In this document: positions 12,057 to 60,763 of the stretch, in pieces | Layout of the letters: each line of letters opens with the position of its first letter | Position numbering within the stretch: the stretch's first letter is position 1 | From: Leptolyngbya sp. SIO1E4 | GTDB lineage: Bacteria > Cyanobacteriota > Cyanobacteriia > Phormidesmidales > Phormidesmidaceae | NCBI GenBank assembly: GCA_010672825.2 | Contig: JAAHFU020000002.1 | Location: forward strand, 384,001-448,000 | Length of the DNA stretch: 64,000 bases | Direction of reading: 5' to 3' | Program-made: the position numbers and the translations under genes | Notes under the pieces: generated by a model | Databases searched by the model: none | Seen by the model: only the letters and a program-made list of their open reading frames with translations | What the model was told of the DNA's origin: nothing

Positions 12057-12170
12057 GATGGTAAGCTGGCCCGCTATTCGTTGCGCGATCGCCGAGTATT
12101 TGAGATTCTCAACTATTCACTGAGACAGTTAGTGGATTAAAGATTTTAGGGAGTGGGAAGATTTATAACG
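12057..12170 (+). pseudogene. Decayed duplicate of the ArsR gene 3' end
   Basis: GATGGTAAGCTGGCCCG onward parallels the 3' end of the ArsR gene and its flank (about 11150-11270): the shared stretch includes CAGTTAGTGGATTAA and AGATTTTAGG, followed by GGGAAGATT and TATAACG. Many substitutions and indels have broken it. The VapBC-like pair lies between the two copies. Confidence 0.7.
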
Positions 12171-12350
12171 ATCCCAATCACGCGCTGTAGACAAACTCAA
12201 TTACTCACAAATAGCCTCTCGGCGGTCGGGTGCATTGGGGTGGTTATGCCACCGTGTGTGGCTAGCAGAGGGAACTGACCAGCACCTAGCCACGCAAGTC
12301 TAAAGCGAGACAAACCAAAGGCTTTGAGGCATCATAGGAGGCCAAGTATA

Positions 12351-43305: not shown

Positions 43306-43920
43306 ATGATTGCGATCGCACCTATCAGATCCTTGCCAGATGGCTCAGTGGCAACCATCCCAATGAGCTGGGCAGAGTATGAGCAACTGGTCGCTAGCCG
43401 AGGCGATCACAGTATTCCGCGTCTTAAATATGCCAATGGACATTTAACCCTCAAGATGCCAACCTTCGAGCATGGGCAGCTGGATGCGATTGTTGCTGAT
43501 TTGATTGTTGCCATCCTCAATCAGCAGCTACGCGATTACATCCGCACTACACCCGTTACCCTGCAAATTCCTGAGCAGGCAGGCATTGAGCCTGATCATT
43601 GTTTTTGGCTTAGTAACTGGGCAGCTGTGAATGGCAAAAGTCGTATTGACCTAGCAACCGACCCACCGCCTGATATTGCAGTCGAAGTAGATGTAACCAA
43701 CTTTACGAATATCGCTGACTATAAACCTTTTAAGGTTGCTGAAGTATGGCTAATTCGAGGAAACACCCTAGAAATCTTTGGCCTAACCCCTGAGGGATAT
43801 ATCCAGACTGATTCTAGTCAGTTTTTTCCTGAGGTTGCTATGCCAAAGTTATATCAGCAGGTGATCGCAGCAGTTGCCGATGGTGCTAGCCCGCCAAGGG
43901 CAATTCGATCTGTCATCTAG
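43306..43920 (+). CDS. Uma2-family PD-(D/E)XK nuclease-like protein
   Basis: 204 residues. The Uma2 layout is visible: MSWAEYEQLVA, PRLKYANGHLTLKMPTFEHG, PDHCFWLSNW and DPPPDIAVEVDVTNFTN (the P-D-x-x-V-E-V core). Uma2 genes are numerous in cyanobacteria and of unclear function (possible nucleases). It is single and monocistronic, not linked to the hyp genes functionally as far as can be seen. Confidence 0.85.
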   Translation: MIAIAPIRSLPDGSVATIPMSWAEYEQLVASRGDHSIPRLKYANGHLTLKMPTFEHGQLDAIVADLIVAILNQQLRDYIRTTPVTLQIPEQAGIEPDHCFWLSNWAAVNGKSRIDLATDPPPDIAVEVDVTNFTNIADYKPFKVAEVWLIRGNTLEIFGLTPEGYIQTDSSQFFPEVAMPKLYQQVIAAVADGASPPRAIRSVI

Positions 43921-44133: not shown

Positions 44134-44293
44134 ACGGAAGGGGGCCTTATTTTATTCGTAGAGGGCTATTCTCTGGCGAAAGTCACAAAAGAGAGATTAG
44201 GCAACACTCCCTCCTCTGGCTTCAAGATGCACCCCAACGATGCCGCTTTGCTGCTGCCCACCCGTATCGAACAGGCAGGCAGAGCGATCGCGA

Positions 44294-44527
44294 TTACGGC
44301 AGGGTGCGCTTGCGGGTCATGACGCTAATGAATTCGCCATTTCTGCCCGTGGGCAAAGGTTCGCTCCAGGCAATGCGTTCGCAATAGCCCAGCACTGCCA
44401 TGCGGTTGATGGCTTCAATCAGGGCGCTGTAGTCACCCAGCAGGATATGGCGCACTGTCTCTTGATTAAAGGACGGCAGGTTAAAACTGGAAGGGGCATT
44501 GGCCCCTCCACCAGAAGATTGAAACAT
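44294..44527 (-). CDS. Conserved 77-aa protein, copy B
   Basis: MFQSSGGGANAPSSFNLPSF, then HILLGDYSALIEAINRMAVL and ending FISVMTRKRTLP. Differs from copy C by only a few residues (APSS against VPPI; ET against EA) and from copy A mainly in the first ~18 residues. Unknown family. Located at the left of the cassette array, transcribed away from it. Confidence 0.78.
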   Translation of the reverse strand: MFQSSGGGANAPSSFNLPSFNQETVRHILLGDYSALIEAINRMAVLGYCERIAWSEPLPTGRNGEFISVMTRKRTLP

Positions 44528-44711
44528 ACGGGTGTCTCCGTTTTCGACTAAGGAAAACGGGGAACTATCCAGATCCCTATTTGAAGCGGTAAGGACAAGA
44601 TAGTGGGTACGATGATCCCAGTCATCTCGACTTACCTACGCTAAGTTGGGATGATCAGGGGTTTTGAGAGGCTCCACCCTCTCTTTTCCCCGCCTAGAAT
44701 CATTCCCCGTG
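44528..44711 (-). promoter_or_regulatory. Structured 5' leader of the 77-aa gene, copy B
   Basis: Long-range pairing ACGGGGAA (44557-44564) with TTCCCCGT (44703-44710), and hairpin CCGTTTTC / GAAAACGG nested next to the start codon. The paired parts are preserved relative to copies A and C, though ~90 nt of the interior differ. Confidence 0.5.
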
Positions 44712-45034
44712 GGACATAACGTACAAGAAGCTGCCCACGAGTTCAACCGTATTGATAAGCCGATAGGTTTTTTCGGGTGAAAGGCTAAAGTGACTTAGTC
44801 GAGCGACTTTACTGGATGCGATCGAGCAAGCGTGGCGACTTTGATGATGCCATGGCAAACGTGTATAACTCCCCTAGATGGGGGCTTAACTGTCAATGGA
44901 TATTATCAGCCAGATCTGACGCTGAATATATAGTTAGCTATCAATCGGTCGATTAAAAGCTGCTTGCCCATTATGCTGACTTTCTTTAGCTGGTTATTTC
45001 ATTGCAGGTAAATGAATGACACATAGACTGACCA

Positions 45035-45847
45035 ATGAAAAAAATTGATAAGTTGCAAGCTAGTGCCACTTCAAGTGTGTCCGTGCTGTCAATCTCTCAG
45101 GCAACGACAGCTACGTTCACTGATCTTTATTTTCAGCACACATTTTTATTCTTCATTCGGGTTGGTAGCAAAAGGGTATTGTGTCCGATAAACGGCGAAC
45201 TGATTGGGCATGCCGAAGATGTGATGATATTTCCTCCTGGGTCTATGGTGACGATGGAAAACCGACCCGTGCTTGGCGATGATTATCGAGCTACTGGTGT
45301 TTGCTTTCCACGTCATATGATAGGAGCGGTGTTCTCTAACCAAAAATTAAAGTCTGAATCAACTGGCATCCAAATCGTGCAAGCTTCTACAGGTCAGTCC
45401 TTCCAAATATTAAATACTATTCAGGCCACGCTGGACGACACAGAAATACCAGAGCCTATAAGACAGCATCGACTGCTGGAACCCTTGATCTGGTTAAAAT
45501 ACAATGGTGTTCATCTCTCACCTCATGAAGAAGAGAAACCACTTAGCAAGGTTAGAAGACTTATTGAAACAGATTTAAGCCACCCTTGGCGGTCCAGTGA
45601 AGTGGCCGATTATTTTGCCATAAGTGAGGCAACCATGAGACGTTGGTTAACCAAATCCGGGCAAAGGTTTTCAAAAATACTGCAGAATACAAGACTTGAG
45701 CATGGGCTTAGCCTTTTACAGTCAACAGACATTCCAATTTCAGAAATCGCATTTGATTGTGGATTCAAAGCACCATCACACTTTTCGGATTCGTTCAAGA
45801 AGCGATTTGGGATTAAGCCGAGTGAGATACGCAAGGTAGAAGATTGA
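45035..45847 (+). CDS. AraC-family transcriptional regulator
   Basis: 270 residues. N-terminal cupin-like sensor (FFIRVGSKRVLCPINGELIG, AEDVMIFPPGSMVTM), C-terminal HTH pair (WRSSEVADYFAISEATMRRW and IPISEIAFDCGFKAPSHFSD, residues ~185-265) with the conserved FKKRFGIKPSEIRK ending. Such proteins activate operons in response to small ligands. It begins ~96 bp beyond the edge of repeat copy B and precedes the PEBP gene by 101 bp, so it probably controls it. Confidence 0.88.
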   Translation: MKKIDKLQASATSSVSVLSISQATTATFTDLYFQHTFLFFIRVGSKRVLCPINGELIGHAEDVMIFPPGSMVTMENRPVLGDDYRATGVCFPRHMIGAVFSNQKLKSESTGIQIVQASTGQSFQILNTIQATLDDTEIPEPIRQHRLLEPLIWLKYNGVHLSPHEEEKPLSKVRRLIETDLSHPWRSSEVADYFAISEATMRRWLTKSGQRFSKILQNTRLEHGLSLLQSTDIPISEIAFDCGFKAPSHFSDSFKKRFGIKPSEIRKVED

Positions 45848-45948
45848 GCGTTTTTCGATAGTTTCTGCCTGATTGGTGAAAGTAGAATAAAGCTGTCCTT
45901 GCTAAATTCAGAGTGTAGACAATACTCAACTTAAAGAGGACCACGACA

Positions 45949-46497
45949 ATGCTTAGTAAGTTTATTGCTCTTGGCTTTTTGCTCACCACAATGATCGCAT
46001 CTCCTGCATCTGCGCAGGAGTTTAACTTAACCAGTACAACCGTCTCCGAAGGTGAAATATTGACAAACGCCCACGTTTTTGAGGGTTTTGGATGCGAAGG
46101 TGAAAACCAGTCACCACAATTGTCATGGACTGGTGCACCAGAAGAAACAAAAAGCTTTGCAATCAACGTGTATGATCCAGATGCACCAACCGGCTCAGGC
46201 TGGTGGCACTGGAATGTCGTCAATATTCCAACCTCCACAAACTCTATTTCTCAGAATGCGAGTATCAATGACGACCTACCTGGTGAGGCGATTGAGATTC
46301 GAAATGACTACGGTACTATTGGGTTTGGCGGTGCTTGTCCCCCTCCCGGTGAAGTCCATCGTTACATCTTTACGGTGTATGCGCTGAGTACAGAACGCTT
46401 GGAACTGCCTGAAAATCCAAGCAATGCGCTTGTCGGTTTCATGATCCGTACAAATATGCTCGACAGTGCAAGTATCACAGCGGTTTATCATCGATAA
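45949..46497 (+). CDS. Secreted YbhB/YbcL-type PEBP protein
   Basis: 182 residues with signal peptide MLSKFIALGFLLTTMIASPA, cleavage near SAQ-EF. The phosphatidylethanolamine-binding signature is visible: SPQLSWTGAPEETKSFAINV and DPDAPTGSGWWHWNVVNIP, CPPPGEVHRYIFTVYAL. Function of bacterial PEBPs is unclear (kinase-inhibitor-like). It lies between copy B/AraC and attC1, compatible with a first two-gene cassette. Confidence 0.88.
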   Translation: MLSKFIALGFLLTTMIASPASAQEFNLTSTTVSEGEILTNAHVFEGFGCEGENQSPQLSWTGAPEETKSFAINVYDPDAPTGSGWWHWNVVNIPTSTNSISQNASINDDLPGEAIEIRNDYGTIGFGGACPPPGEVHRYIFTVYALSTERLELPENPSNALVGFMIRTNMLDSASITAVYHR

Positions 46498-46576
46498 TAT
46501 TAACTAACAACAACAGTTTTACCCCCAATCCCTTGCTAGAGATTCAGAGGGGTAAATTTCTTTAATTGAAGGTGCT

Positions 46577-46661
46577 AGCTAACACTGCATGGCAGCGGGC
46601 AAGCAAAGGGCACCTGTGTAAATTTCAGATTAACTGTTGCCGCTGCACTCTACCGTTAGCC
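46577..46661 (+). other. Integron attC site 1
   Basis: R'' AGCTAAC (46577-46583) and R' GTTAGCC (46655-46661). L'' GGCAGCGG pairs with L' CCGCTGC. 85 bp. First site of the array. Confidence 0.75.
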
Positions 46662-46676: not shown

Positions 46677-47462
46677 ATGGAAATTCGCCGCACCACTCTC
46701 CGTGATCGAATCGTCAGTGCCTTGAGCAATGCGTCAAGCGCCCTGCCTTTTGTTCTGGCGGGTTGGGAAGGCGGGAGTGCCGCGTTCGATCTTGTGGATG
46801 AGTACTCCGATATCGACTTAAATTTCCTGTTGGATGGTGCAAACGCAGAAGAACCCTTTTACACCGCTGTCCAGTTGGCCCTAGAAGAGGTGTCGCCCGT
46901 AGTAGCTTGCCACTCCGAGCCTCCTGGCCGATACTTCAAGTTGGCTGCTAGCGGAGACTTTCTATTGGTGGATGTGTGTGTTTTCCAGAAAGGAGACTAC
47001 GTCGAGTATCTCGACCCTGAACGCCACGGGAAGTTGCAGCCACTCTTTGACAAAGGGGAGTGGCTACGGTTTAAGCCCTCAGAGAGGGACTCGCAGGAAA
47101 CTCGCCGGGCCAAGCGCAGTCAAGACCTCGAAGAGTGGTTTTCCGTGAGTCAGAGTTTTGTCCAAAAGGCGATCTATCGCGGCCAAGAGGCAGAAGCCCT
47201 TGCCGCGTTTTGGGGATACACGCTTAAGCCACTCGTGGAACTGCTTCGCATGCGATATTGTTCCACACGCTGGGACTTCGGGATGCGTTATCTTCAGCGA
47301 GATCTTCCAGGCCCCGTATACAATCAATTGCGAGACATCATGTTTGTAGGAGACCCTTCTGATCTAAAAGAACATCACGCGAAAGCGGTGGCCTGGGGGG
47401 AATTGCTACTTCAAGAATTGGAGCTATCCAGGGCAGGCGATCCTCCGCCGAAGGCTGGCTAA
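46677..47462 (+). CDS. Nucleotidyltransferase, aminoglycoside/lincosamide type (cassette gene)
   Basis: 261 residues from ATG 46677, 16 bp after attC1. The pol-beta-type motif GWEGGSAAFDLVDEYSDIDL (GS...DxD) is near residue 25, and a C-terminal helical part follows (LEEWFSVSQSFVQKAIYRGQ). Resembles antibiotic nucleotidyltransferases and orphan NTases. The stop TAA is part of R'' of attC2, the usual layout of an integron cassette. Confidence 0.8.
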   Translation: MEIRRTTLRDRIVSALSNASSALPFVLAGWEGGSAAFDLVDEYSDIDLNFLLDGANAEEPFYTAVQLALEEVSPVVACHSEPPGRYFKLAASGDFLLVDVCVFQKGDYVEYLDPERHGKLQPLFDKGEWLRFKPSERDSQETRRAKRSQDLEEWFSVSQSFVQKAIYRGQEAEALAAFWGYTLKPLVELLRMRYCSTRWDFGMRYLQRDLPGPVYNQLRDIMFVGDPSDLKEHHAKAVAWGELLLQELELSRAGDPPPKAG

Positions 47463-47555
47463 CACTATGCTGCACCTGACTTGCACCTTCGGTCCTGCGT
47501 CTTGCGAAGCAAGTCTTGGCCCTACGCCGTATGCAGGTGAGCTTGAACGTTATGT
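47457..47555 (+). other. Integron attC site 2
   Basis: R'' GGCTAAC (47457-47463, overlapping the stop codon) and R' GTTATGT (47549-47555). L'' GCTGCACCTGAC pairs with L' GCAGGTGAGC with extrahelical bases. 99 bp. Confidence 0.65.
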
Positions 47556-47571
47556 GGTATGTGATACTCCC

Positions 47572-48003
47572 ATGGAATTGCGAATCGCGGCAAAGACAGA
47601 TGCAGATGCGATCATCGCTTTCGATCACGTCGCGGCATCTGACCCGGCACGTGTCCAGTTAATCCACAACCAGATCAAATCGGGCGCTTGTTACATCGCC
47701 GTCATCGACGCAAACGTCGTGGCCTACGCCGTCCTGAACTACAAATTCTACGACAACGGTTGGATCGAAATGCTCTATGTCCATCCGCGATTCCGCCGTC
47801 AAGGAATCGGATCTGCGTTGATCCGTCACTTGATTAATGAATGCTGCACACCCAAACTGTTCACATCGACGAATCAATCCAACGTCCCGATGCAGCGACT
47901 GCTGGCAACGCTGGGATTTGCTCGAAGTGGCTTCATCGAAAATCTTGACGAAGGCGATCCGGAATGGGTGTACTTCAAACGCTTGCGCGATAATGCCACA
48001 TAA
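47572..48003 (+). CDS. GNAT acetyltransferase (cassette gene)
   Basis: 143 residues from ATG 47572 (MELRIAAKTDADAIIAF). The acetyl-CoA site VHPRFRRQGIGSALIRHLI (RRQGIGS) is clear, and TNQSNVPMQRLLATLGF and GFARSGFIENLD complete the fold. Substrate unknown; could be an amino acid or antibiotic. The longer open frame upstream is attC sequence. Confidence 0.88.
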   Translation: MELRIAAKTDADAIIAFDHVAASDPARVQLIHNQIKSGACYIAVIDANVVAYAVLNYKFYDNGWIEMLYVHPRFRRQGIGSALIRHLINECCTPKLFTSTNQSNVPMQRLLATLGFARSGFIENLDEGDPEWVYFKRLRDNAT

Positions 48004-48087
48004 TAAACGCATGCACCGGAGCCACCGATGTGATCGGATTTTAGTGGAACATCAAACGGGGCGGCCCGTTGATGCTGGTCGTTAGGC
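47998..48087 (+). other. Integron attC site 3
   Basis: R''-like ACATAAT (47998-48004, overlapping the stop) and R' GTTAGGC (48081-48087). L'' GCACCGGAGCC pairs with L' GGCCCGTTGATGC. Similar to attC7. 90 bp. Confidence 0.7.
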
Positions 48088-48191
48088 GGCTTAAGCACGT
48101 TTGCCGAGAACCATCGGAGAGGAACCCAGCTACCGTAAGCGCGTGGATCAGCCGTAGAAACTCGCAGCGATCACCCGTTCTAGGAGTAAAA

Positions 48192-48554
48192 GTGTTTGAT
48201 CACGTAGTCTTTGGCACCAGCGACTATGAGGCTAGCAAAGCGTTCTTTCTCAAAGCCTTGAAACCAATCGGCATAGAAGTCGTTTCAGAGGGGCCGCTCG
48301 GGATTGAGCTTAGCTCTGATGGCAAGTCGTCACTGTGTATCCGTCGAGTCGAGGAAACACCTGCACACCTTCATTTGGCATTCGTTGCGCAAAACCGCGA
48401 GCAGGTTGATGACTTTTATCGCGCATCGCTTGAAGCTGGAGCAAAAGACAATGGCGCGCCGGGCATACGCCCGGAATATCGTGGAACGTACTACGCCGCA
48501 TTCGTTATTGGGCCAGACGGCCATAACATTGAAGTAGTGTGTCACGAAGCCTAG
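48192..48554 (+). CDS. VOC-family (glyoxalase/bleomycin-resistance-like) protein (cassette gene)
   Basis: 120 residues from GTG 48192, with TAGGAG just upstream. VFDHVVFGTSDYEASKAFFL, then LHLAFVAQNREQVDDFY and YYAAFVIGPDGHNIEVVCHE give the beta-alpha-beta metal-binding fold (His, Glu). Common in cassettes. Metal and substrate are not deducible. Confidence 0.88.
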   Translation: MFDHVVFGTSDYEASKAFFLKALKPIGIEVVSEGPLGIELSSDGKSSLCIRRVEETPAHLHLAFVAQNREQVDDFYRASLEAGAKDNGAPGIRPEYRGTYYAAFVIGPDGHNIEVVCHEA

Positions 48555-48580
48555 GCTTATGAGCACCGTTCTCTGTCGCC

Positions 48581-48599
48581 GCCTAACGAGTAGTTAGCC
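48581..48599 (+). other. Collapsed attC site
   Basis: GCCTAAC (48581-48587) and GTTAGCC (48593-48599) lie only 5 bp apart; a normal site needs 60-100 bp. Internal L sequences have been deleted, leaving outer R boxes. Confidence 0.5.
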
Positions 48600-48712
48600 C
48601 GCGATGTCCTTTGATACGGGTATACTTTTAGTTTGTTTGAGAAAGATTAGTGCTAAGGTTGGCTTGCTCATACTTAACTTCTAAAAAATTAGATTAGATC
48701 TTAAAAAGAAAT

Positions 48713-49450
48713 ATGTTGACGACAACATTAGCAGCAGTTATATCTCTTGTTACTTCCTTGATAGTTACGATAATCACTCAATATTGGAATACCAAGTTTA
48801 AACAAAAGGAGCAAGAGAGAGAGGAACGCAAAAAGTTGAATTTCTCATACTCCAACCCTTTGCGCTTTGCCCTTGAAAGGGCATACTTTAGGCTTTCTAA
48901 GCTTTTAAAGCTTAGCAAAGAAAGGAACGCTGAATTCAAAAAGAAAATGCCAACTATTAGTAATGTAAGTGAAGTCTCTAGTAAAGACGAAGAATGGTTC
49001 ACTTTTGATGAATCGGGATATTATATAATTTCTTCTTGTTATATGACTGCATGCTTGTTTTACCAAATCGAAAAAATGAGAAGTGAAGTGCCATATTTAA
49101 GTTTGGACAAGAAAGATGATGCAAGAATCATAGCTTTGATGTACGAAGTGACTCACAGTTTTGCCACAGAAGGAGTTTATCATGTAGTTCAAGATAGCAT
49201 TGGCATTGATATGTATATGCCTGAAGAGAAGAGGTTGATGAGTTATCGGGAATTCTGCCAACTCCTGAAAGTTCCGGATAAAAGAAAATGGTTTGACCAG
49301 CTCATTTCTTTTTATATTGGTGTTGGATTAGGTGAGAAAAGTAAGCAAGTACAGCAAACTGTTGACGCTATTGACCAATTGCTGAACTTCATTGAAATAA
49401 GCCTTAATAAGGGCACTCCAGCGAAGGAACGGCAGCGCCCCTTCAAGTAA
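48713..49450 (+). CDS. Membrane-anchored protein of unknown function (cassette gene)
   Basis: 245 residues. A single N-terminal membrane helix (LTTTLAAVISLVTSLIVTII) is followed by a basic, coiled-coil-like stretch (KFKQKEQEREERKKLNF) and a soluble AT-rich-coded domain. No catalytic motif. Codon use is much more AT-rich than neighbouring cassettes, indicating a different source. Confidence 0.65.
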   Translation: MLTTTLAAVISLVTSLIVTIITQYWNTKFKQKEQEREERKKLNFSYSNPLRFALERAYFRLSKLLKLSKERNAEFKKKMPTISNVSEVSSKDEEWFTFDESGYYIISSCYMTACLFYQIEKMRSEVPYLSLDKKDDARIIALMYEVTHSFATEGVYHVVQDSIGIDMYMPEEKRLMSYREFCQLLKVPDKRKWFDQLISFYIGVGLGEKSKQVQQTVDAIDQLLNFIEISLNKGTPAKERQRPFK

Positions 49451-49777
49451 CTTCAGGGAAAAGATTCAAAAAATTAACCTGCTCGATAAGCATGATAAGT
49501 AGGTGGATTTAATCTTTTATAAGATGGCATTTTAGTGAAAACCTTTATCCTTAAAGCTTCCTAGGATTAAGTATCTTAGGTTTAATCATGTCTACCTACT
49601 TACCACTAAGTAAGAAGTTCTAATTAATTGTAAGAAGGGGTTTAGGGTGGTACTCCCAAGTGGGGTTTCCTAACCCTCAACCCCCATAAACATTTTCAAT
49701 TTATTTCGCCCAGGTAGTTGCCGTTGGCGGGCTAACATAGTCCCTGATCTGGGTACGGACACCCTCCTGGCTCTGCC
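49451..49777. other. Non-coding stretch of cassette with inverted repeats
   Basis: No gene seen. AAGTAGGTGGA (49496) pairs with TCTACCTACTT (49591), and GGGGTTTAGGG (49637-49647) with CCCTCAACCCC (49675-49685); the latter may be a terminator. GGCTAAC at 49730-49736 is an additional R''-like box. Confidence 0.45.
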
Positions 49778-49866
49778 GTCTAACCTTACGCAGGAGCGGA
49801 CTGAATTTACAATCCAGGCAGGCATAGATGCAAAAATATTGGCCGCCGCTTAACTCCACGTTAGCC
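49778..49866 (+). other. Integron attC site 5
   Basis: R'' GTCTAAC (49778-49784) and R' GTTAGCC (49860-49866). L'' GGAGCGG pairs with L' CCGCTTAACTCC after looping out TTAA. 89 bp. Confidence 0.65.
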
Positions 49867-49912
49867 TGCAAAATTCAGTGTTGCATCATGGATATACATC
49901 CTCATCCAAGGC

Positions 49913-50794
49913 ATGAAATCCATGAATAATAGAACTCAATATTTATTGGAATTAGCAAAACGCAATGTTAAAGCTTACATTGCTAATCCGAAAACAAAAG
50001 CAGCAATGGTTGCAGGCTCAGTTGCAGAAGGGCTGTGTGATGAATACTCTGATTGTGACATGAGCATTTATTACGACGAATTACCTTCCGAGGAAGAATT
50101 GCAGCTTGCGCGTCAACAGAATCAAGGTTCAGAGCGGCTCTGGATTTTGGGTGATCGAAAAGAGGGTGGGTTCGCTGAGAGTTACCTTGTAAACGGTGTC
50201 GAGTGTCAGTTTGGTCATGTGACGATCTCACAATGGGAGAGAGATATTTCAAATATCTTGGAAGGGCATGACATTCAATCCCCATTAGTGAAAGCGATGT
50301 CTGGGACATTGGTCGGAATCCCACTGTACGGTGAAACGCTCATTCAGCGATGGAAAGCCAAGGTGGCGAATTATCCAGATGAACTCGCACAGAAGACGGT
50401 TGAACATTACCTCAAGTTCTTCGCGATTTGGGGAATGCAGGAAAAATTCGCCAAGCGAGATACGACGCTTTGGTATTATCAAATCCTGGTTGAGTCAGTC
50501 CAAAACCTTCTCGGCGTGTTATCTGGGTTGAACCGTTTATATTATTCAACATTTCAATTCAAGCGGATGAGCAGGTTTATTGAGCAAATGGAGATTGCAC
50601 CTGAGAATCTTGCCGCTCGTCTTGAAAGGCTGTTTCATCAGGAACCCCCAGTAGCGGTCAATCAACTTGAAGCATTGGTTCGAGAAACCGTAGAGCTTGT
50701 GGAGATTCATAGACCTCAAGTGGAGACGTCGTCAGCAAAACGAAGATTAGGGTGGAGACAACAGCCGTGGAAATTCAATGAAATAGATCGGTGA
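49913..50794 (+). CDS. Nucleotidyltransferase (cassette gene)
   Basis: 293 residues. AGSVAEGLCDEYSDCDMSIY contains the GS-x9-DxD catalytic motif near residue 35. The C-terminal half (VEHYLKFFAIWGMQEKFAKR, FIEQMEIAPENLAARLERLF) is helical. Similar in design to the 46677 gene but not closely alike. No resistance phenotype can be assigned. Confidence 0.8.
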   Translation: MKSMNNRTQYLLELAKRNVKAYIANPKTKAAMVAGSVAEGLCDEYSDCDMSIYYDELPSEEELQLARQQNQGSERLWILGDRKEGGFAESYLVNGVECQFGHVTISQWERDISNILEGHDIQSPLVKAMSGTLVGIPLYGETLIQRWKAKVANYPDELAQKTVEHYLKFFAIWGMQEKFAKRDTTLWYYQILVESVQNLLGVLSGLNRLYYSTFQFKRMSRFIEQMEIAPENLAARLERLFHQEPPVAVNQLEALVRETVELVEIHRPQVETSSAKRRLGWRQQPWKFNEIDR

Positions 50795-50803
50795 GGTATT
50801 GCC

Positions 50804-50885
50804 AGCTAACAACCGTATTGCAGCGGAACGTGCTTGCTTGCTTTGTTAGAGTTAAGGGGGCGTCCGCTGAACACGAACGTTATGC
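50804..50885 (+). other. Integron attC site 6
   Basis: R'' AGCTAAC (50804-50810) and R' GTTATGC (50879-50885). L'' GCAGCGGAACGTG pairs with L' CGTCCGCTGAACACG. 82 bp. Confidence 0.75.
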
Positions 50886-50900
50886 GGAAAGAGAGCGACC

Positions 50901-51449
50901 ATGATCTGTGGAACGAGAATAACGCTTCGTCCCGCTACCAAAAATGACCGCCGGGACATCTACATTTGGCTCGTCGCGTCTGATGTCACGGCATCCATGA
51001 TGGGACCGCCTACATTTCCTGAAGTGTCGATTCCCACCTGGGATGAGTTCTTAGGTGATTACGCACCGCATTTCTTCGATGGGTCACGGCCTCACTGTGG
51101 ATGCTCTTTCATCATCGAGGTTGATGGCGAGGCGGTTGGGCACATCAATTACGATGGACTTGATACCGAACGATCTATCACGGAATTGGACATTTGGATG
51201 CGGTCGCAGGGCTGCTGCGGTCACGGATACGGAACGGATGCAATGGTTGCGTTAATGCGCCACCTTCACGCCGACTTTGCGGTGGAAACTTTTATCGTTC
51301 GTCCTTCGCGCCGCAATCAACGGGCGATCCGCGCATACGAAAAGGCTGGGTTTCGACCATCCCGATTGTCGCTTGCAGATCAAACGAGCACATATGGTGA
51401 CGGGGATTACTCCGATACGATTACACTTGAACGCAAAATGTCCGCATAA
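50901..51449 (+). CDS. GNAT acetyltransferase, aminoglycoside 6'-N-acetyltransferase-like (cassette gene)
   Basis: 182 residues (MICGTRITLRPATKNDRRDI). RSQGCCGHGYGTDAMVALMR is the acetyl-CoA binding region (a variant of QxxGxG), and RPSRRNQRAIRAYEKAGFRP follows. Overall layout resembles AAC(6')-type enzymes, which are common cassette products; activity is inferred. The stop is part of R'' of attC7. Confidence 0.82.
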   Translation: MICGTRITLRPATKNDRRDIYIWLVASDVTASMMGPPTFPEVSIPTWDEFLGDYAPHFFDGSRPHCGCSFIIEVDGEAVGHINYDGLDTERSITELDIWMRSQGCCGHGYGTDAMVALMRHLHADFAVETFIVRPSRRNQRAIRAYEKAGFRPSRLSLADQTSTYGDGDYSDTITLERKMSA

Positions 51450-51538
51450 CAAAGTGATGCACCGGAGCGGGCTACGTTATCGGTTTTTCCACGATCACTC
51501 GTGTTGGTCTGTCCACCCGGTGATCTTAATCGTTAGCT
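51444..51538 (+). other. Integron attC site 7
   Basis: R'' GCATAAC (51444-51450) and R' GTTAGCT (51532-51538). L'' GATGCACCGGAGCGG pairs with L' CACCCGGTGATC. 95 bp. Another GTTAGGT lies 31 bp farther (51569), perhaps a remnant. Confidence 0.75.
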
Positions 51539-51788
51539 GGCTACACACCCAGGCTTTGCACTTGTACTGTTAGGTTTCTGATGAGCTTAAAAATCCATAA
51601 AATGAGATCAAATTGTTACTCGAACTCTTCTGTGATGTTTGAGAGGTTTATGGAACTGAAGCAAAGATACTCATAGAGACTTCCTAAGTTCACAACCTCC
51701 AAGAGAAGGGACATATTAAATCAGAAGATCTTGAGAGGATTAAAGAAGCGATTCCTGAAAATTTCAATCCCAATGTTGGAGCTTATCT

Positions 51789-52307
51789 GTGATACCAAAT
51801 AGTGAAAGTCCCAAGGATTCTGCCTTCAGATATCAACTTGATTTCCTAAAGCTGGAATATCAGAGCCTAAATGAAACTATAGCTAGAATTGATGGCACCA
51901 CTCAAACCATAAAAAATTGGACGCTTCTTATTTGGGCTGGCTCTATTTCATTTTCTCTAACACGTGAGCAAGATCTGCGTGATTATGTCATATTTACGGC
52001 AATAATACCGTTAGTCTTTTGGTCTCTTGACGCTTGGTGGCGTCGAGTACAGCGACAGTGCATTTTTCGAATTGAGTTAATTAGTGATTTTTTGAATAGT
52101 GAAAATCTCTTCACATCCTTTTCAGAAAAAAAGTTAATAAATTTCCATTTAATTGACCATCGTGCCAGGAAACATGCCAATAAAAAGGAATTAATTGCAT
52201 TTAGCAGTGTTTGGAAAACAGTCTGGTTTGGTAGTGTGGCGGCTTTTTATCTAGGTCTTTCTATAATGAGTATAGGACTTGGCGTATTTTTCCTGTTGGT
52301 TCAATAA
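51789..52307 (+). CDS. Small multi-span membrane protein (cassette gene)
   Basis: 172 residues, GTG start. A soluble helix (FRYQLDFLKLEYQSLNETIA) precedes membrane spans (WTLLIWAGSISFSL; YVIFTAIIPLVFWSLDAWW) and a further C-terminal span pair (AAFYLGLSIMSIGLGVFFLL). Similar spacing of helices occurs in SLATT-type effectors, but similarity cannot be confirmed. The 250 bp before it carry no gene. Confidence 0.6.
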   Translation: MIPNSESPKDSAFRYQLDFLKLEYQSLNETIARIDGTTQTIKNWTLLIWAGSISFSLTREQDLRDYVIFTAIIPLVFWSLDAWWRRVQRQCIFRIELISDFLNSENLFTSFSEKKLINFHLIDHRARKHANKKELIAFSSVWKTVWFGSVAAFYLGLSIMSIGLGVFFLLVQ

Positions 52308-52313
52308 GTCGAC

Positions 52314-52399
52314 AGCTAACACTTCACGGCAGCGGATGGGCGAAAGTCGCTAGTCCTGATTTAAAGGTTATTAGCCGCCGCTGCATTTCACCATTAGGC
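52314..52399 (+). other. Integron attC site 8
   Basis: R'' AGCTAAC (52314-52320) and R'-like ATTAGGC (52393-52399); the conserved G is replaced by A. L'' CACGGCAGCGG pairs with L' CCGCCGCTGC. Closely related to attC1. 86 bp. Confidence 0.7.
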
Positions 52400-52433
52400 G
52401 CACTACACACTGTGATTCATGTGTGAGAGTTGA

Positions 52434-53306
52434 ATGAAAATTATTGTTCAAAATGGAGAAGTTTATACTCGGTCACTCGGTACAGGTCGAAAGGCACTCT
52501 TGATCATACATGGTGGCCCTGACTGGGATCATTCTTACCTACTTAATGCTGCCGAAATACTGGCTAGAGACACACGAGTTATCTTGTTTGACATTCGTGG
52601 CTGTGGCTTATCTTCAAGATTTGATGACGTTGAAGAGTATTCAATAAACAAAATTGTCTCTGATATTCAAAAGGTACTGTCTGCACATCGTCTGAAAAGC
52701 TGCGATGTTCTTGGATTTTCATTTGGTGGTACAGTTGCGCTAAGTCTGTTGAAGCATCACCCTGATGTGATTGAAAGGCTCATTCTGGCTTCGACCACAG
52801 CTTACGCTAGTTATCAGGCAGATCTTGAAGCCAAACCCGAGTACCAGAAACGAAATACTCTTGAGTTACGTGCATTAAAAGCATATGCATTCCATGAAGC
52901 TGAACCAATTGGTGAAGAACCCAGTCGTAGCCTAGCGATGAAATCGCTTGCCCTTGACGTTCATGACTTGAGTAAAATAGGTGTAGTCAAGAAAGTGATA
53001 AGCAAAATCAAATTTTCAAGTGAATGGATTAAGGCATTTCGTAAAGGTGTTATTGGAAATGAAAATTTCGATGTGGCTTATCTTATCAACTCAACCAATA
53101 AACAACTCTTAATCGTTCACGGTGAGAATGATTTGCGTTTTCCGCTGTCCGTTGCACAAAAACTTCATCAAAACGTACCCGCCTCTGAGTTGGTAATTAT
53201 CAGCGGTGCTGGCCATCTAGCACATTTAGAAAAGTTAAACGAGTGGGTTAATGCTGTAGGTACTTTTTTAGCTGAAAAAGCACATGGGAGTGAAGCCAGC
53301 ATCTAA
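52434..53306 (+). CDS. Alpha/beta hydrolase (cassette gene)
   Basis: 290 residues. LLIIHGGPDWDHSYLLNAAE contains the HGGP oxyanion motif of prolyl-iminopeptidase-like hydrolases; DVLGFSFGGTVALSL the GxSxGG nucleophile elbow; LIVHGENDLRFPL the Asp; GAGHLAHLEK the catalytic His. Substrate unknown. The stop is inside R'' ATCTAAC of attC9. Confidence 0.9.
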   Translation: MKIIVQNGEVYTRSLGTGRKALLIIHGGPDWDHSYLLNAAEILARDTRVILFDIRGCGLSSRFDDVEEYSINKIVSDIQKVLSAHRLKSCDVLGFSFGGTVALSLLKHHPDVIERLILASTTAYASYQADLEAKPEYQKRNTLELRALKAYAFHEAEPIGEEPSRSLAMKSLALDVHDLSKIGVVKKVISKIKFSSEWIKAFRKGVIGNENFDVAYLINSTNKQLLIVHGENDLRFPLSVAQKLHQNVPASELVIISGAGHLAHLEKLNEWVNAVGTFLAEKAHGSEASI

Positions 53307-53384
53307 CAAACGCATGCAGCAAAAATCAACAATCTTTCTACGTTTAGCACAAATTTTTGCTTCCGCTGATGCGAGTCGTTATGT
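53301..53384 (+). other. Integron attC site 9
   Basis: R'' ATCTAAC (53301-53307) and R' GTTATGT (53378-53384). L'' GCATGCAGCAAAAAT pairs with L' ATTTTTGCTTCCGCTGATGC. 84 bp. Confidence 0.8.
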
Positions 53385-53412
53385 AGACAAAGATTGGGTG
53401 AGTCTCTTGCGA

Positions 53413-54021
53413 ATGGCTGTCCTAGTTGGTGCGATCGCCGTTCTCTTCGGAACTGGCTGCACTCGGCACGTGCAGATTGAGTCAATCGGATACACCATCG
53501 TTGATTCCTATCCGGTGCCGAAAGACGCGTACTACAAATACCCACGTGAGGCAGCGGTGACTCCGCGGGATGCTGAACGTGGCCCTTTTCTGGTTGGGTT
53601 CTTCAAGTCGGACGTGGATCTTAGCTCGATCGCTGAATCGAAGGGAATGCACCACCTCGGATACAACCTTTTCCAATGTCCCGAGCCAGCACCGCATGAG
53701 TATTCGTTCTCCAACGACCGGGTGTTCGAGTTGTCCCGTGAGGATTCTGCCCGGCTCGGATCACCTGGCGAAGAAGACACATTCAAGCTCTATATTCCGC
53801 TCAACCTCCACGAGACAATCGAGCGCTCGCCATTCCTGCGCGGGCCAGAGGAGGAGACTCTAGTCGCCGATGGCATTCGCGCGCGGGGTCTCTGTCTTGA
53901 TGTTCGCGCGGGCGCAATGACGGGCTTTGCTCTACGATCAAACACAGTCATGCTGCCCGTAAGTATTGAGAATTCGCCTTTGAGAGTTAGTGGTATTTTG
54001 CCTGGAGCGGAGGTCGAGTGA
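53413..54021 (+). CDS. Predicted lipoprotein (cassette gene)
   Basis: 202 residues from ATG 53413 (MAVLVGAIAVLFGTGCTRHV). LFGTGC is a lipobox, so the mature protein is probably a lipid-anchored extracytoplasmic protein. The rest has no catalytic motif. An upstream extension of the open frame is attC9 sequence. Confidence 0.72.
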   Translation: MAVLVGAIAVLFGTGCTRHVQIESIGYTIVDSYPVPKDAYYKYPREAAVTPRDAERGPFLVGFFKSDVDLSSIAESKGMHHLGYNLFQCPEPAPHEYSFSNDRVFELSREDSARLGSPGEEDTFKLYIPLNLHETIERSPFLRGPEEETLVADGIRARGLCLDVRAGAMTGFALRSNTVMLPVSIENSPLRVSGILPGAEVE

Positions 54022-54028
54022 GGCAGCC

Positions 54029-54083
54029 ACATAACGTTGTGTTCAGCTGACAAGCTAACTCGCAGCTGAACACAACGTTATGC
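54029..54083 (+). other. Integron attC site 10, perfect palindrome
   Basis: ACATAAC (54029-54035) to GTTATGC (54077-54083). Arms of 20 bp (CATAACGTTGTGTTCAGCTG and its exact complement) enclose a 13-nt loop that contains CTAAC. 55 bp, without visible extrahelical bases. Confidence 0.65.
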
Positions 54084-54099
54084 GACATGAGTTACAGAT

Positions 54100-54720
54100 C
54101 TAGGTGCTCTGTGACATTGATCCATTGATGTTGAAAGTTAAGATAGCGTGTTGCATTCGGATTTCGGCTAAGCGATTGGCTTGATTGGGGTCTACCCCAA
54201 TTGTTAACTCACCTACCAAGGAGTAGTAAGCTAAACGGGCACGAACCATTGCTTCGGCTTCAGAGAATCCAATTTCGAGAAATAATGCTTTGGTGTAGTT
54301 GAGCCTTTGCTGATCAACGTGGGCAATGACTTCGGCTACTTTCTGATTACTCATCGCCCAAGCACGAATTGAATTTTCAATTCTGCCATCAGCCAAACCG
54401 GGAATAAGACCGTTCTCTGCGATCGCCAGTTCAAATAGGCGCAGTAGCTTTGCCTTCGGATCAGCATCAATTTGATTGACTTGTTCAATAATGCCGTTGG
54501 TATCAATCTCTACCCATTCAGCCAAGATTGCATCCAATAAATCATTCCGATCCTTAAAGTGCCAATAGAAGCTGCCTTTAGACATTTTCATCCGCTTGGC
54601 CAACGGCTCTATTCGGACTGCTTCTACACCACTTTCCGCCAGCACAATCAACCCTGACTTAATCCAGTCTTGCCTGCCAAGCTTGGATTCTGGACTTTTC
54701 TTTCCTTGGTTTTTATCCAT
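54100..54720 (-). CDS. TetR-family regulator (cassette gene, reverse)
   Basis: 206 residues. N-terminal HTH WIKSGLIVLAESGVEAVRIE then PLAKRMKMSKGSFYWHFKDR; the remainder is a ligand-binding domain. Divergent from the GNAT gene at 54947 (226 bp), probably regulating it. One cassette thus carries its own promoter region and regulator, and reads against the array. Confidence 0.88.
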   Translation of the reverse strand: MDKNQGKKSPESKLGRQDWIKSGLIVLAESGVEAVRIEPLAKRMKMSKGSFYWHFKDRNDLLDAILAEWVEIDTNGIIEQVNQIDADPKAKLLRLFELAIAENGLIPGLADGRIENSIRAWAMSNQKVAEVIAHVDQQRLNYTKALFLEIGFSEAEAMVRARLAYYSLVGELTIGVDPNQANRLAEIRMQHAILTFNINGSMSQST

Positions 54721-54946
54721 ACGCTACCGTATTGACATCTTTGGAATCATAGCTTAAGTTAACCGCATACGATGGCGTATGGAGGCCTTATGTACGAAAC
54801 TAATTTGCTATCTGCGATGCCGCAATTGGGACGCCTGCCCGACGCTTAGTCATGGTTGAAATTAAGCGACCGATGACATTCGTGGGCAATGTATCTGGAA
54901 GTTCATTGCTCGATAAATTTCACCTTCATCTTCAGGCCACTAGATC

Positions 54947-55573
54947 ATGAATTGCTTTGATGTGATCCAGTTACAACCATCACAGATTCCGGATGCCAGT
55001 GAAATTGCAGCAAATGCATTTGCATCTGATCCGGTATTTAGCTATCTAATGCCAGACGATCCGCAACTGCGATTTAAGGCATTAGCCTGGTTGTCGAATA
55101 GAGTAATGGCCTACTGTACTCAGTATGAACATATCTATACGACATCAGACTTGCAAGGAATTGCTGTCTGGTTGCCACCAGGAGAATTCTCTAGCCATCT
55201 TCTCCAGCAATTAAAGATGGTGTTGCAACTTCAGTTATATAGATTGCCGATGAAAGTGGGGTGGAGTCGATTGGGACGATGGTTGAATGTCCTATACACA
55301 ACCGAAATAGCTCATCAACAGGACATGGGCAATTCATCCTGTTGGTATTTGGGGATGATGGTGGTGCATCCAGCAAGACAAGGACAAGGAATCGGTAGTC
55401 GGTTACTGCAGCCAATTATGCGACGGGCGAGTGATGAGGGCTTACCCTGTTATGTTGTGACTTTTACAGAGCCGGCAGTGCGTTTCTACCAGAAAAATGG
55501 GTTTGAAATCGTTCGCCAGCAAAAGTTCGCACTCGACGCGCCGTTATTCTGGACACTCAAGCGCAATCCGTGA
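54947..55573 (+). CDS. GNAT acetyltransferase (cassette gene, divergent from TetR)
   Basis: 208 residues (MNCFDVIQLQPSQIPDASEI). MVVHPARQGQGIGSRLLQPI holds the acetyl-CoA motif QGQGIGS, FTEPAVRFYQKNGFEIV the conserved tail. Typical of antibiotic or toxin detoxification acetyltransferases; substrate unknown. Together with TetR it makes a two-gene cassette. Confidence 0.88.
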   Translation: MNCFDVIQLQPSQIPDASEIAANAFASDPVFSYLMPDDPQLRFKALAWLSNRVMAYCTQYEHIYTTSDLQGIAVWLPPGEFSSHLLQQLKMVLQLQLYRLPMKVGWSRLGRWLNVLYTTEIAHQQDMGNSSCWYLGMMVVHPARQGQGIGSRLLQPIMRRASDEGLPCYVVTFTEPAVRFYQKNGFEIVRQQKFALDAPLFWTLKRNP

Positions 55574-55611
55574 CTAATGAATTGCCTGCAAAAGTCGATA
55601 CTGTTGATGTT

Positions 55612-55699
55612 GCATAACAATCCTGTTGCAGCGGATTAACCCAAGACGCTACGCCAAGATTGTAAGGGTCTTGGCAACCGCTAACCACAACCGTTCTGA
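55612..55699 (+). other. Integron attC site 11 (degenerate)
   Basis: R'' GCATAAC (55612-55618). L'' GTTGCAGCGG pairs with L' CCGCTAACCACAAC, but the R' position reads GTTCTGA (55693-55699), away from consensus. 88 bp. Confidence 0.5.
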
Positions 55700-55753
55700 C
55701 GCTTGCGTTTCGGGTGGGGGCAGTAGTTTGGAAAATATCGGTCGAGGGCAACA

Positions 55754-56299
55754 TCAAGCTAACTTATCTTTCAATCGACTACACTCATCCAGCAGCAGAT
55801 TGAGTTCAGCAGCTACTTTCCAGGGATTGCGACCTTTGAAAGGGGCCGCGATAACTGCTTCATAGGGATTTTTCCCAGTTTTTTTGACGGCTGCGATCGC
55901 GGCTTGGTTGGAGAGTCCTCGTCCAGCTACAAGCCAAGCGGCTAGGATATGTCCTGTGCGTCCAACTCCACCAGAACAATGAACAATAACTTTCTCTTCA
56001 TTTTGGTTGGCAGCAGCTAGGAACGGTAGAATTTGTTGAGTTAGAGTTTGCGGCTTCGCAAAATCAAAATCGTAGATTGGTGTCCAACAAACGCGGTTAA
56101 TTCCGAAGGTCTGTCGGTAAGTTTCAAGTAGATTTGTGTAGCGAATGAGTTGAAACTCAGTCATCAAGCAGCAGACACGCTTGATGTCTTGATTGTGCAT
56201 GAACTCAATCCACTTGTTAACTTGCTCATCGCTATATCCCGGTCGAGCACAGCCAAATACGATGGATTCATTCTCCGAAGCTGAAGCAAATTTGTACAT
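55754..56299 (-). CDS. Dual-specificity/tyrosine-phosphatase-like protein (cassette gene, reverse)
   Basis: 181 residues. VIVHCSGGVGRTGHILAAWL contains the C-x5-R-T/S signature of the Cys-based phosphatase loop. The upstream Asp region PIYDFDFAKPQ supplies the general acid candidate. Such phosphatases dephosphorylate proteins or phosphoinositides; the target is unknown. Orientation is opposite to the array. Confidence 0.88.
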   Translation of the reverse strand: MYKFASASENESIVFGCARPGYSDEQVNKWIEFMHNQDIKRVCCLMTEFQLIRYTNLLETYRQTFGINRVCWTPIYDFDFAKPQTLTQQILPFLAAANQNEEKVIVHCSGGVGRTGHILAAWLVAGRGLSNQAAIAAVKKTGKNPYEAVIAAPFKGRNPWKVAAELNLLLDECSRLKDKLA

Positions 56300-56410
56300 A
56301 TCGAGTGCATCAAATTGTTCAATAACTGATTTTAACGCTTAAGTTTTCCTGTCAATCCAGTTCGACAAAACGAAGATTAAATATTTTATAATAGGTCGTG
56401 TTTTGGCGCA

Positions 56411-56497
56411 GCAGAACAATCCCATTGCACCGACCGTATAGAGTCTTTTCGTTGAGTCCGAGAAGCTGTTAGCAGCGGGTGAACAGGGTCGTTAGGC
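56411..56497 (+). other. Integron attC site 12
   Basis: R''-like GCAGAAC (56411-56417) and R' GTTAGGC (56491-56497). L'' TTGCACC pairs with L' GGGTGAA. 87 bp. Confidence 0.6.
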
Positions 56498-57792: not shown

Positions 57793-57947
57793 ATGCCACT
57801 CAGTGAAAAAATCAAGCAGGCTATTCGAGAACGAGCCAAATATATATGTGAGTATTGCCATCCTCTAGAACGTTTTGAGTGCCAATCGATTTACCATCGA
57901 CCATGCCATTCCAAAGTCTTTGAGCCGTCCCGCCGTCTCTAACGCAA
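57793..57947 (+). pseudogene. HNH endonuclease fragment
   Basis: MPLSEKIKQAIRERAKYICE, then YCHPLERF from ATG 57793; a +1 shift continues as ANRFTIDHAIPKSLSR (from 57881), the I-D-H-x-I-P HNH core. A stop and the junction with repeat copy C (57974) truncate it. A real HNH gene interrupted by the repeat element. Confidence 0.65.
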
Positions 57948-58051
57948 GTTATATCGGCAGGCGATCGCAGCAGTTGGCTTCAAGATGCACCCCAACGATG
58001 CCGCTTTGCTGCTGCCCACCCGTATCGAACAGGCAGGCAGCGCGATCGCGA

Positions 58052-58285
58052 TTACGGCAGGGTGCGCTTGCGGGTCATGACGCTAATGAACTCGCCGTTT
58101 CTGCCCGTGGGCAAAGGTTCGCTCCAGGCGATTCTCTCGCAATAGCCCAGCACCGCCATGCGGTTGATGGCTTCAATCAGGGCGCTGTAATCGCCCAAGA
58201 GGATGTGGCGAACGGCTTCTTGATTAAAGGATGGCAAGTTAAAGATGGGAGGGACATTGGCCCCTCCGCCAGAAGATTGAAACAT
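58052..58285 (-). CDS. Conserved 77-aa protein, copy C
   Basis: MFQSSGGGANVPPIFNLPSF and ending FISVMTRKRTLP. Almost identical to copy B (44294-44527), so intact and under constraint. Unknown function. It points away from the array, as do the other copies. Confidence 0.78.
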   Translation of the reverse strand: MFQSSGGGANVPPIFNLPSFNQEAVRHILLGDYSALIEAINRMAVLGYCERIAWSEPLPTGRNGEFISVMTRKRTLP

Positions 58286-58472
58286 ACGGGTGTCTCCGTT
58301 TTCGGTTGAAAGAAAACGGGGAACTCTCTAGCATTTCCCAATGAAGGTGCAACAGAGAAGCTAGATCATAGAATGAGCCCAGGCATCTCGTCTTACCGTC
58401 GCTAAGTCGGGATGTTCAGGGGATTTGAGGAGCTGCAACTTCTCTTTTCCCCGCCTAGAAACATTCCCCGTG
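58286..58472 (-). promoter_or_regulatory. Structured 5' leader of the 77-aa gene, copy C
   Basis: ACGGGGAA (58316-58323) can pair with TTCCCCGT (58464-58471) and GAAAACGG with CCGTTTTC near the start codon, as in copies A and B. Confidence 0.5.
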
Positions 58473-59003
58473 CGACATAACCTACAGGAAGCTGTCCGTG
58501 AGTTCAACCGTATGGGTTAGCCGACAGGATTTTTCGGGTGAAAGGCTAAAGTGCCTTATTCGAGCAACTTTACTGGATGCGATCGAGCAAGCGTAGCGGC
58601 TTTGATAATGCCGTCGTACATGTCGGATAACGCCTCTAGGTCAGTGCTTAATTGTCAAAAGTGACGGATAAGCACCCCGAACACCATACTTAATTGTCAA
58701 AAGTAGAAAATAACACCCTACTTTCTTAGAGTTATATGTCAAATATTGTGTATAAGTTCTGTGAATGGAGGTGTTATTACCCAAAAGTGACGGATAAGAT
58801 CCGGGAACATGGATATTATCAGCCGGATCTGACGCTGAATATATAGTTAGGCTTCAAATGGGGCTTTTATGCCTTTTCATATACAGTTTTCGTTTCATCT
58901 AAAGGATCAGATAGAAGACTTTTGTGTGGGATAAAATTATTTACGATAAACCAAAACAGTTTATAGATGGAGTTGATTAAGGCCGAGAGTGCAGGAAGAT
59001 ATC

Positions 59004-59549
59004 ATGATAAGCAAAGTAGGATTTGATTTTGATGAATTTGGCGGTAATGTCGATATTGTCATCGTGAAAGGTAATAAAGATCGGTTAAAGAATGCCAGGT
59101 ATCTGAAATCTCTTCAAGGCAATTGGAAGTTTGAGCAACAACAAGATCAAGCGTGGAGTTTTTATCACGGGATGAGATACCCAGCAGAAGAATTTGAAGC
59201 ATTAGCGAAAGAGTTATCGAAAGAGTTCTCGACGAGGGCGATTTATTTTTACTTCGGAGACGCATCGGGCTGGATGGGCTATAAGCTATTTGTGAATGGC
59301 GAAGAAAGTGAAGAGTATAGTTTTGGCGTAGACTATGATGAGGAATTGGCTGAGGCCGGGATTGACTTAGCGGAGACGAGAAAAGCGGGTACGTTGGTTA
59401 CTAGTAATGAGGATGGGTATCAGTGTTTATTTTGGAGCCTACTTCGTACTAAAGCCGAAGATGAAATCAGCGGTGGAGAAAAATTCATCGATGAGTTTCT
59501 ACGTAATGAAAGCGCCTATATTGGCTGGGACTTATTCCCTAATAGCTAA
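59004..59549 (+). CDS. Hypothetical protein (cassette-like gene)
   Basis: 181 residues from ATG 59004 (MISKVGFDFDEFGGNVDIVI), with AGGAAGA upstream. Acidic, globular, no signal or membrane segment; IYFYFGDASGWMGYKLFVNG and DEYSFGVDYDEELAEAGI lack known motifs. AT-rich. It directly follows repeat copy C. Function unknown. Confidence 0.6.
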   Translation: MISKVGFDFDEFGGNVDIVIVKGNKDRLKNARYLKSLQGNWKFEQQQDQAWSFYHGMRYPAEEFEALAKELSKEFSTRAIYFYFGDASGWMGYKLFVNGEESEEYSFGVDYDEELAEAGIDLAETRKAGTLVTSNEDGYQCLFWSLLRTKAEDEISGGEKFIDEFLRNESAYIGWDLFPNS

Positions 59550-59737
59550 ATGATTTTTAATAAAGAGGGAAAATCCAAGTGTAAACCTATTGAAGAGTTA
59601 AGTTAAGCAGCAATTCCAAAAGACTTAATTTTTTATAATCAATGCAAAATCTTTCTGAAGATATAGTCCTAAAAAGCTTGCATCAGGGTCACCTTATTGA
59701 GGTTTTTGAAGGTGATTGACATTGCCGGTTCCAATGA

Positions 59738-60190
59738 TGCTCTGTTCATGGAGGAGAGGAAGAAACTAATCGAATTGGTTACGATAGCCTCGGTTCGGCT
59801 CAAAGAGCTGGGAAGGCATTTAAGGCATTTATTGATAGAAAAACAGAGGACGATAATGCAGTGTTAAAGCTTGAGATTAGGTGGCCGTGGACTATGATGC
59901 CTCTGTCGGTAGCCGATGAATACATCAAGTATCTTCAGGAGCAAATCGGTTCCGAACATCCACTCTATGGCAAGAAGGTGTTTCCGTCTTGCCATAGAGT
60001 GGATAGCTGGGATCCCATTATTTAACTTGATCTTGATGACGACAATTCCTATGCCATTGTTTTCTTCGGCGAGAAGCAGCTATTTGGCAATAAGCAAATG
60101 CCAAAGGTAGAGTTTATAGCCTCGGTTTTCGATCTTCAGAAACGCTTTGACCAAGATCGTCGTAACGCGATGGAGAGCCTCGATGATTAG
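59738..60190 (+). pseudogene. Broken ORF with in-frame stop
   Basis: The frame reads ...AFKAFIDRKTEDDNAVLKLE through MMPLSVADEYIKYLQEQIGS to VDSWDPII, then TAA at 60023-60025, then LDLDDDNSYAIVFFGEKQLF to NAMESLDD before the stop at 60190. The 5' part has another stop at about 59735. A perfect 18-bp inverted repeat sits inside it. Family not recognised. Confidence 0.55.
59958..60004. repeat. Perfect 18-bp inverted repeat with 11-nt loop
   Basis: ATCCACTCTATGGCAAGA at 59958-59975 and its exact complement at 59987-60004. Lies within the broken ORF, 19 bp before its premature stop. A strong hairpin, perhaps an inserted palindrome. Confidence 0.85.
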
Positions 60191-60205
60191 AATAAATCTC
60201 TGCAT

Positions 60206-60294
60206 GCCTAACCCTGCGTTGGAGCGGATGTGAGTGCAAAAGGGTCGGGCGTCGTAATAAAATCATTTCTCACCGCTCAACTGCGCCGTTAGGC
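60206..60294 (+). other. Integron attC site 13
   Basis: R'' GCCTAAC (60206-60212) and R' GTTAGGC (60288-60294), both canonical. L'' GCGTTGGAGCGGATGTGAG pairs with L' CTCACCGCTCAACTGCGC with extrahelical bases. 89 bp, the clearest site in the array. Confidence 0.85.
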
Positions 60295-60311: not shown

Positions 60312-60683
60312 GTGTCACAGGAGACGCATTGTCCGATTTGCTACTCAGAGCTGGAGGTGCGAGACGTCGCTCCATGCATGGAGTGCGGCGGTCTGCCAGA
60401 AGAGCTAGCACATTATCAAGAGGGTAGACATAGGTACCAGGAGCTCGAGGTGCTGCCAGGGCATCGTCTTGTTCTCTGTAACTTCTGTATGGTGGATTTC
60501 GGTTCTTTTGACCGCAGTTACTTCGGGCTCCCGCAAGGCCACTCGCTCGGTTTCGAGCATATGGAGTACGTCCGGGAAGCTTCGAACATCGGGATAGGCA
60601 AAGACAAATTCTGCACAACTTGTGGTCACAGGCTCAGTTTTCTGAAGTTCGTGTGCGCTGTTCGAAGCGAAAACGGAGCCTAA
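60312..60683 (+). CDS. Zinc-ribbon protein (cassette gene)
   Basis: 123 residues with GTG start. CPICYSELEVRDVAPCMECG, CNFC and CTTCGHRL supply three Cys-x2-Cys pairs for one or two zinc sites. The stop lies in R'' of attC14. No catalytic motif. Function unknown, small protein typical of cassettes. Confidence 0.75.
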   Translation: MSQETHCPICYSELEVRDVAPCMECGGLPEELAHYQEGRHRYQELEVLPGHRLVLCNFCMVDFGSFDRSYFGLPQGHSLGFEHMEYVREASNIGIGKDKFCTTCGHRLSFLKFVCAVRSENGA

Positions 60684-60763
60684 CAAGCCGTTGCAGCTAA
60701 TGCTAGGAGCGTGTTTCGTGAACACTAAAGGCTGTCAGCAGCCGTTGAACTACGCTGTTATCC
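60678..60763 (+). other. Integron attC site 14
   Basis: R'' GCCTAAC (60678-60684) overlaps the stop codon; R' GTTATCC (60757-60763). L'' around GTTGCAGC and L' around GCCGTTGAAC pair only partly. 86 bp. Confidence 0.6.

Follow-up and report, generated by a model that had tools for sequence, protein, structure and literature searches.

The usual description of an integron is that of a single platform per chromosome with an integrase of its own. Integrons have been reported from cyanobacteria, as have genomes with several integrase (intI) genes and the frequent occurrence of intI pseudogenes (PMC2426708), and in Xanthomonas the decay of intI has been traced to frameshifts, stop codons or deletions (PMC12444791). 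It is also accepted that arrays lacking an integrase can be mobilised in trans (PMC9668308, PMC12444791), and a precise edge at GTT beside cassettes bearing attC sites is the established signature of attI x attC recombination (PMC8618304, PMC8352920). No description was found in the open-access literature of an orphan attI present in many copies within one genome, or of the loading of such copies.

The subject of this work is a repeat found in three copies (A, B and C) within a window of 64,000 nucleotides from Leptolyngbya sp. SIO1E4, a filamentous cyanobacterium with an assembly of 8.2 Mb in 12 contigs (99.99% complete). The original prediction regarded each copy as an attI-like site, free of any integrase, that had received different cassettes. 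Very probably, the repeat represents a platform for recombination belonging to a cyanobacterial chromosomal integron whose intI has mostly been deleted, with a genuine attI in each copy. Direct support comes from the identity of the attI, its place beside an intact intI in related genomes, the remnants of intI, the attC arrays behind the platforms and the multiplicity of platforms per genome. The platform would read leftwards from attI through an almost wholly deleted intI to a short gene, denoted here as ORF77, and rightwards from attI into the cassettes.

The repeat and its right-hand edge

Self-comparison of the window showed 86% identity between B (44217-44896) and C (57975-58658) across 686 bp and, at their right ends, an extra common block of 50 bp (94% identical). 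Across about 480 bp, copy A (4337-4814) is 80% identical to C and 77% identical to B; its attI end comes in addition, and its middle is a different sequence, namely an integrase remnant. The predicted common length of about 0.7 kb therefore stands for B and C, whereas A contributes only some 0.48 kb and the attI block at the right end. Alignment of all three copies confirmed that similarity is lost directly past GTTAG, with the core GTT starting at positions 5089, 44933 and 58846. On the plus strand, the attI of platform A was placed at 4990-5091 (core 5089-5091) from the alignment and the 58-locus profile described below, that of B at 44854-44935 (core 44933-44935), with an internal deletion of about 150 bp at 44896, and that of C at 58613-58848 (core 58846-58848). 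The left flank of C (57946-57976) repeats 31 bp found at 43846-43876, within the gene upstream of B, which suggests a local duplication as the origin of B and C. A separate repeat of 220 bp (4035-4254 and 7008-7227, 87% identical), part of ORF 6998-7732, brackets platform A and its cassette, and degenerate tandem repeats of roughly 43 bp occupy positions 21037-21530 within another ORF.

In the genome, the element is present, whole or in part, at ten loci. The expectation that all of them end at the core GTT was borne out at the six with a clean right edge (A, B, C, L042, L044 and L045), every one of which diverges at GTT, but not at the remaining four, where the attI end is damaged or lost: the core is mutated in L040, L039 breaks off 15 bp short of it, and L041 and L043 have no attI end left. 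When 58 distinct loci from this genome and its relatives (about 40 genomes) were aligned on GTT, the core proved to be the point of divergence throughout. Most columns from -22 to +2 hold 1-1.9 bits; a weak signal of cassette starts (AGGCGGC) follows in columns +3 to +9, and past +10 the content is down to about 0.05 bits. The search pattern biases columns -19 to +3, while columns -20 to -60 and those past +4 lie outside it, so that the conserved columns -22, -26 to -30 and -34, and the drop to the right, are free of this bias.

The attI sequence, GATCTGACGCTGAATATATA immediately followed by GTTA, is specific to this family. Its right end of 23 bases gave about 107 matches in 44 of 65 family genomes, compared with 2 for a reversed control, and the exact right-end pattern, sought in 84,980 GTDB species genomes, was found in cyanobacteria only (20 stretches). 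Relatives have several platforms per genome, some with an intact intI; up to 15 attI-region matches occur in one genome, some of which may be pieces of a single site, and intact integrases are fewer than attI matches. A search for plasmid or viral carriage of the attI found none, and no sigma-70-like site that could act as a cassette promoter (Pc) rose above the shuffled background on the plus strand of attI.

The integrase gene in relatives and in this genome

In Adonisia, Leptolyngbya and Halomicronema relatives, the site is found immediately upstream of an intact gene for an integron integrase, which identifies the end of the repeat as a real attI. In the relative G033, the counterpart of copy C (80% identity across 313 bp) extends from the opening codons of an intact intI to the same GTT, and the encoded integrase reaches 477 bits with the TIGR02249 model (cut-off 265). 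Two further genomes, G031 and G014, have the same layout, and an intact intI is also present in Leptolyngbya PCC 7375 (G002).

The claim that no integrase is encoded holds insofar as the assembly yielded no intact intI; remnants, however, are present, and since the gene is intact in relatives sharing the attI, the locus is best described as a decayed integron rather than an element that is integrase-free by design. Copy A retains, on the minus strand between ORF77 and attI (4805-4954), IntI residues of approximately 54-99 (E=8.7e-10 in one search, and E=1.2e-14 with 74% identity in another), fused to the IntI C-terminus, which ends in DIS and the stop codon. In copies B (44757-44853, minus strand) and C (58521-58612, minus strand), as in L039, L040, L041 and L042, nothing remains of intI but roughly its first 30 codons, joined to the last one through one identical internal deletion junction. 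L044 has a longer, broken remnant and lacks ORF77. As no intact intI was detected there, the arrays have probably become frozen.

ORF77 and its leader RNA

ORF77 is a conserved ORF of 77 amino acids, located downstream of intI and preceded by a structured leader RNA. It lies on the minus strand at 4337-4570 in copy A, 44294-44527 in copy B and 58052-58285 in copy C. Its family has no match in Pfam or NCBIfam, and its predicted fold, a model of modest quality, has no significant match among solved structures in the PDB. In relatives, ORF77 is found directly downstream of intI (L056/L149, L058 and L059), and in one of them, G013, a second platform (L151) contains an independently truncated intI; both facts argue for ORF77-intI-attI as the ancestral order.

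In copy B, the ORF77 promoter and a leader of about 165 nt span 44528-44757, and the equivalent regions upstream of ORF77 are 58286-58520 in C and 4571-4800 in A, all on the minus strand. The leader consists of a closing stem (CGGGGAAU/AUUCCCCG) and several hairpins, with compensatory changes at 6 pairs, and has no Rfam family at E<=1. The shared GTTCAACCGTAT block was considered as a transposon end and rejected, as it corresponds to the ORF77 promoter region just behind the intI stop codon. Leader and ORF77 also form a dispersed family of their own (e.g., L149-L168), with 51 copies in G013 and 59 in G028, and the flanks of the aligned copies are unrelated. In the genome studied here, the stop codon of ORF77 is the left edge of similarity for copies other than B and C. 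The leader is mosaic, being 78% identical between B and C and 93% between C and L042, compared with 90-91% for ORF77 and the intI remnant of B and C.

attC sites and cassette arrays

A first attC scanner, which required complementarity between RYYYAAC and GTTRRRY, missed most sites and was replaced by anchored-stem scoring and then by a covariance model built from 16 attC of the window and of relatives. In the latter, 88.9% of cells are paired and 41 carry double changes, a level reached by none of 500 shuffles, and pairing falls to about 30-40% when the strands are slid against each other. The sites have R and L boxes and a bottom-strand fold supported by covariation. The model recovered 51 attC at E<1 in the genome. 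Nine of the ten platforms are followed within 13 kb by attC on the expected strand, 29 sites altogether (20 of them outside the training set), and 2 sites there are on the wrong strand; in 2000 random placements, the count averaged 0.43 and never exceeded 10. Some 22 attC are located away from any recognised platform. Taken with the adjacency to intact intI in relatives, this distribution upholds the attI-like nature proposed for the repeat.

Within the window, the attC sites predicted behind the copies (E from 8e-15 to 2e-4, some having served as training) turned out to be real: one for A, that at 46577-46661 and about ten more for B, and two for C, all on the plus strand. The cassette of A, encoding AraC/DJ-1, is closed by an attC at 6561-6646 (40.7 bits, outside the training set) whose R' box has decayed to GTCATGC. 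The first cassette of B (44936-46661) encodes an AraC-type regulator and a PEBP protein and is closed by attC1 (46577-46661; 66.6 bits, in the training set, with covariation). The rest of array B extends over 47457-56497, where the covariance model placed attC at 47457, 47998, 49778, 50804, 51444, 52314, 53301, 54029, 55612 and 56411. The first cassette of C (58849-60294) encodes a 186-residue protein with no Pfam family and ends in an attC at 60206-60294, followed by a second at 60678-60763 (26.4 bits, outside the training set). Two other attC (11258-11343 and 12163-12249) lie on the opposite strand, as a leftward array with no attI platform found nearby. Elsewhere in the genome, the first genes encode proteins of unknown nature (L042 and L044), a short-chain dehydrogenase (L045) and an APH-type phosphotransferase (L040). 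At L045 (G000:C1:1027966-1027989), the attI end is embedded in an array, flanked on either side by attC of the same orientation.

As foreseen, what follows the platforms differs: no nucleotide similarity was found among the 4-kb segments downstream of eight genomic copies. A different array behind each copy is accounted for if each is an attI with the core GTT as crossover point, at which an integron integrase would join circular cassettes by attI x attC recombination. The genome appears to have run several cassette-capture stations.

How the platforms may have multiplied

Six loci have one intI deletion in common, yet their first cassettes are different. Probably the platforms were either loaded in trans or made alike by gene conversion. 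One explanation, to which we give slightly less than an even chance, is that the platforms were filled while their own intI was present and that gene conversion later spread one deleted-intI allele across several older platforms, with no action in trans. The mosaic leader points to gene conversion, thereby weakening the claim of loading after the loss of intI; edges at the ORF77 stop and at GTT are what conversion limited by homology predicts, and several platforms, some with intact intI, do coexist in relatives. Conversion would nevertheless have had to bring one identical deletion to six platforms, and A and L044 retain other remnants.

Alternatively, a unit of 0.7-0.8 kb (ORF77, leader, gutted intI and attI) might have been mobile or duplicated, spreading after intI had been lost and being loaded in trans, a history that we find plausible without favouring it. 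Some platforms may then have been filled, after the loss of their own intI, by an integrase encoded in a different copy that has since decayed or by one of outside origin. Movement of the unit would fit one deletion junction at six loci with unrelated left flanks and unrelated first cassettes, the dispersal of ORF77 and its leader (at least 50 copies in some relatives) and the former presence of at least two other intI copies (A and L044) as possible sources in trans. The left flanks, unrelated and starting precisely at the ORF77 stop, are, in fact, compatible with unit spread and with conversion alike. The mosaicism that points to conversion speaks against movement, and features of a transposable element were not seen: ORF77 is the only ORF encoded, and no transposase, terminal repeats or target duplications were identified. 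The broader proposal that a dispersed, integrase-free attI unit serves as a multi-copy docking station for one integrase acting in trans, with ORF77 and its leader as stable partner, is put forward tentatively, and we think it rather improbable.

An ordinary dispersed repeat with a right boundary near GTTAG by chance, to which the different ends of L039, L041 and L043 might seem to point, is refuted by 58 distinct loci ending at GTT, by the adjacency to intact intI and by the placement and strand of the downstream attC (29 correct versus 2 wrong).

Comparison with described systems

Genomes of this cyanobacterial family contain up to about ten or more matches to one attI, exceeding their intact integrases, so that cassette capture may be spread across many loci and be, or once have been, sustained in trans. 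A family-specific attI allows arrays filed as integrase-less clusters to be traced to platforms, and the use of orphan attI sites in trans becomes a directly testable question.

Among the described systems that come nearest to this locus is the sedentary chromosomal integron (with TIGR02249 integrases), which the locus resembles in its divergent intI, its GTTRRRY-like attI core and its tandem cassettes with attC, all intact in relatives. It differs in that intI is deleted at every platform, in having ten platforms instead of one, and in the conserved ORF77 with its structured leader downstream of intI. Like CALINs, defined by at least two attC without an integrase nearby, an arrangement found here, it consists of cassette arrays devoid of an integrase; in contrast, an attI that can still be recognised and what is left of intI stand before these arrays, and this attI is met again at many loci. 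In the Xanthomonas integrons with decayed intI (PMC12444791), the gene has likewise been lost and the arrays are frozen, but there a single platform occupies a fixed site beside ilvD, whereas here the copies are dispersed through one genome. The likeness to attI1 of class 1 integrons concerns the core alone, a crossover point of the GTTRRRY type. While arrays without integrase, the loss of intI and the presence of integrons in cyanobacteria were already known, what is new is the family-specific attI, its multiplicity alongside fewer intact integrases, and its partnership with ORF77 and a structured leader.
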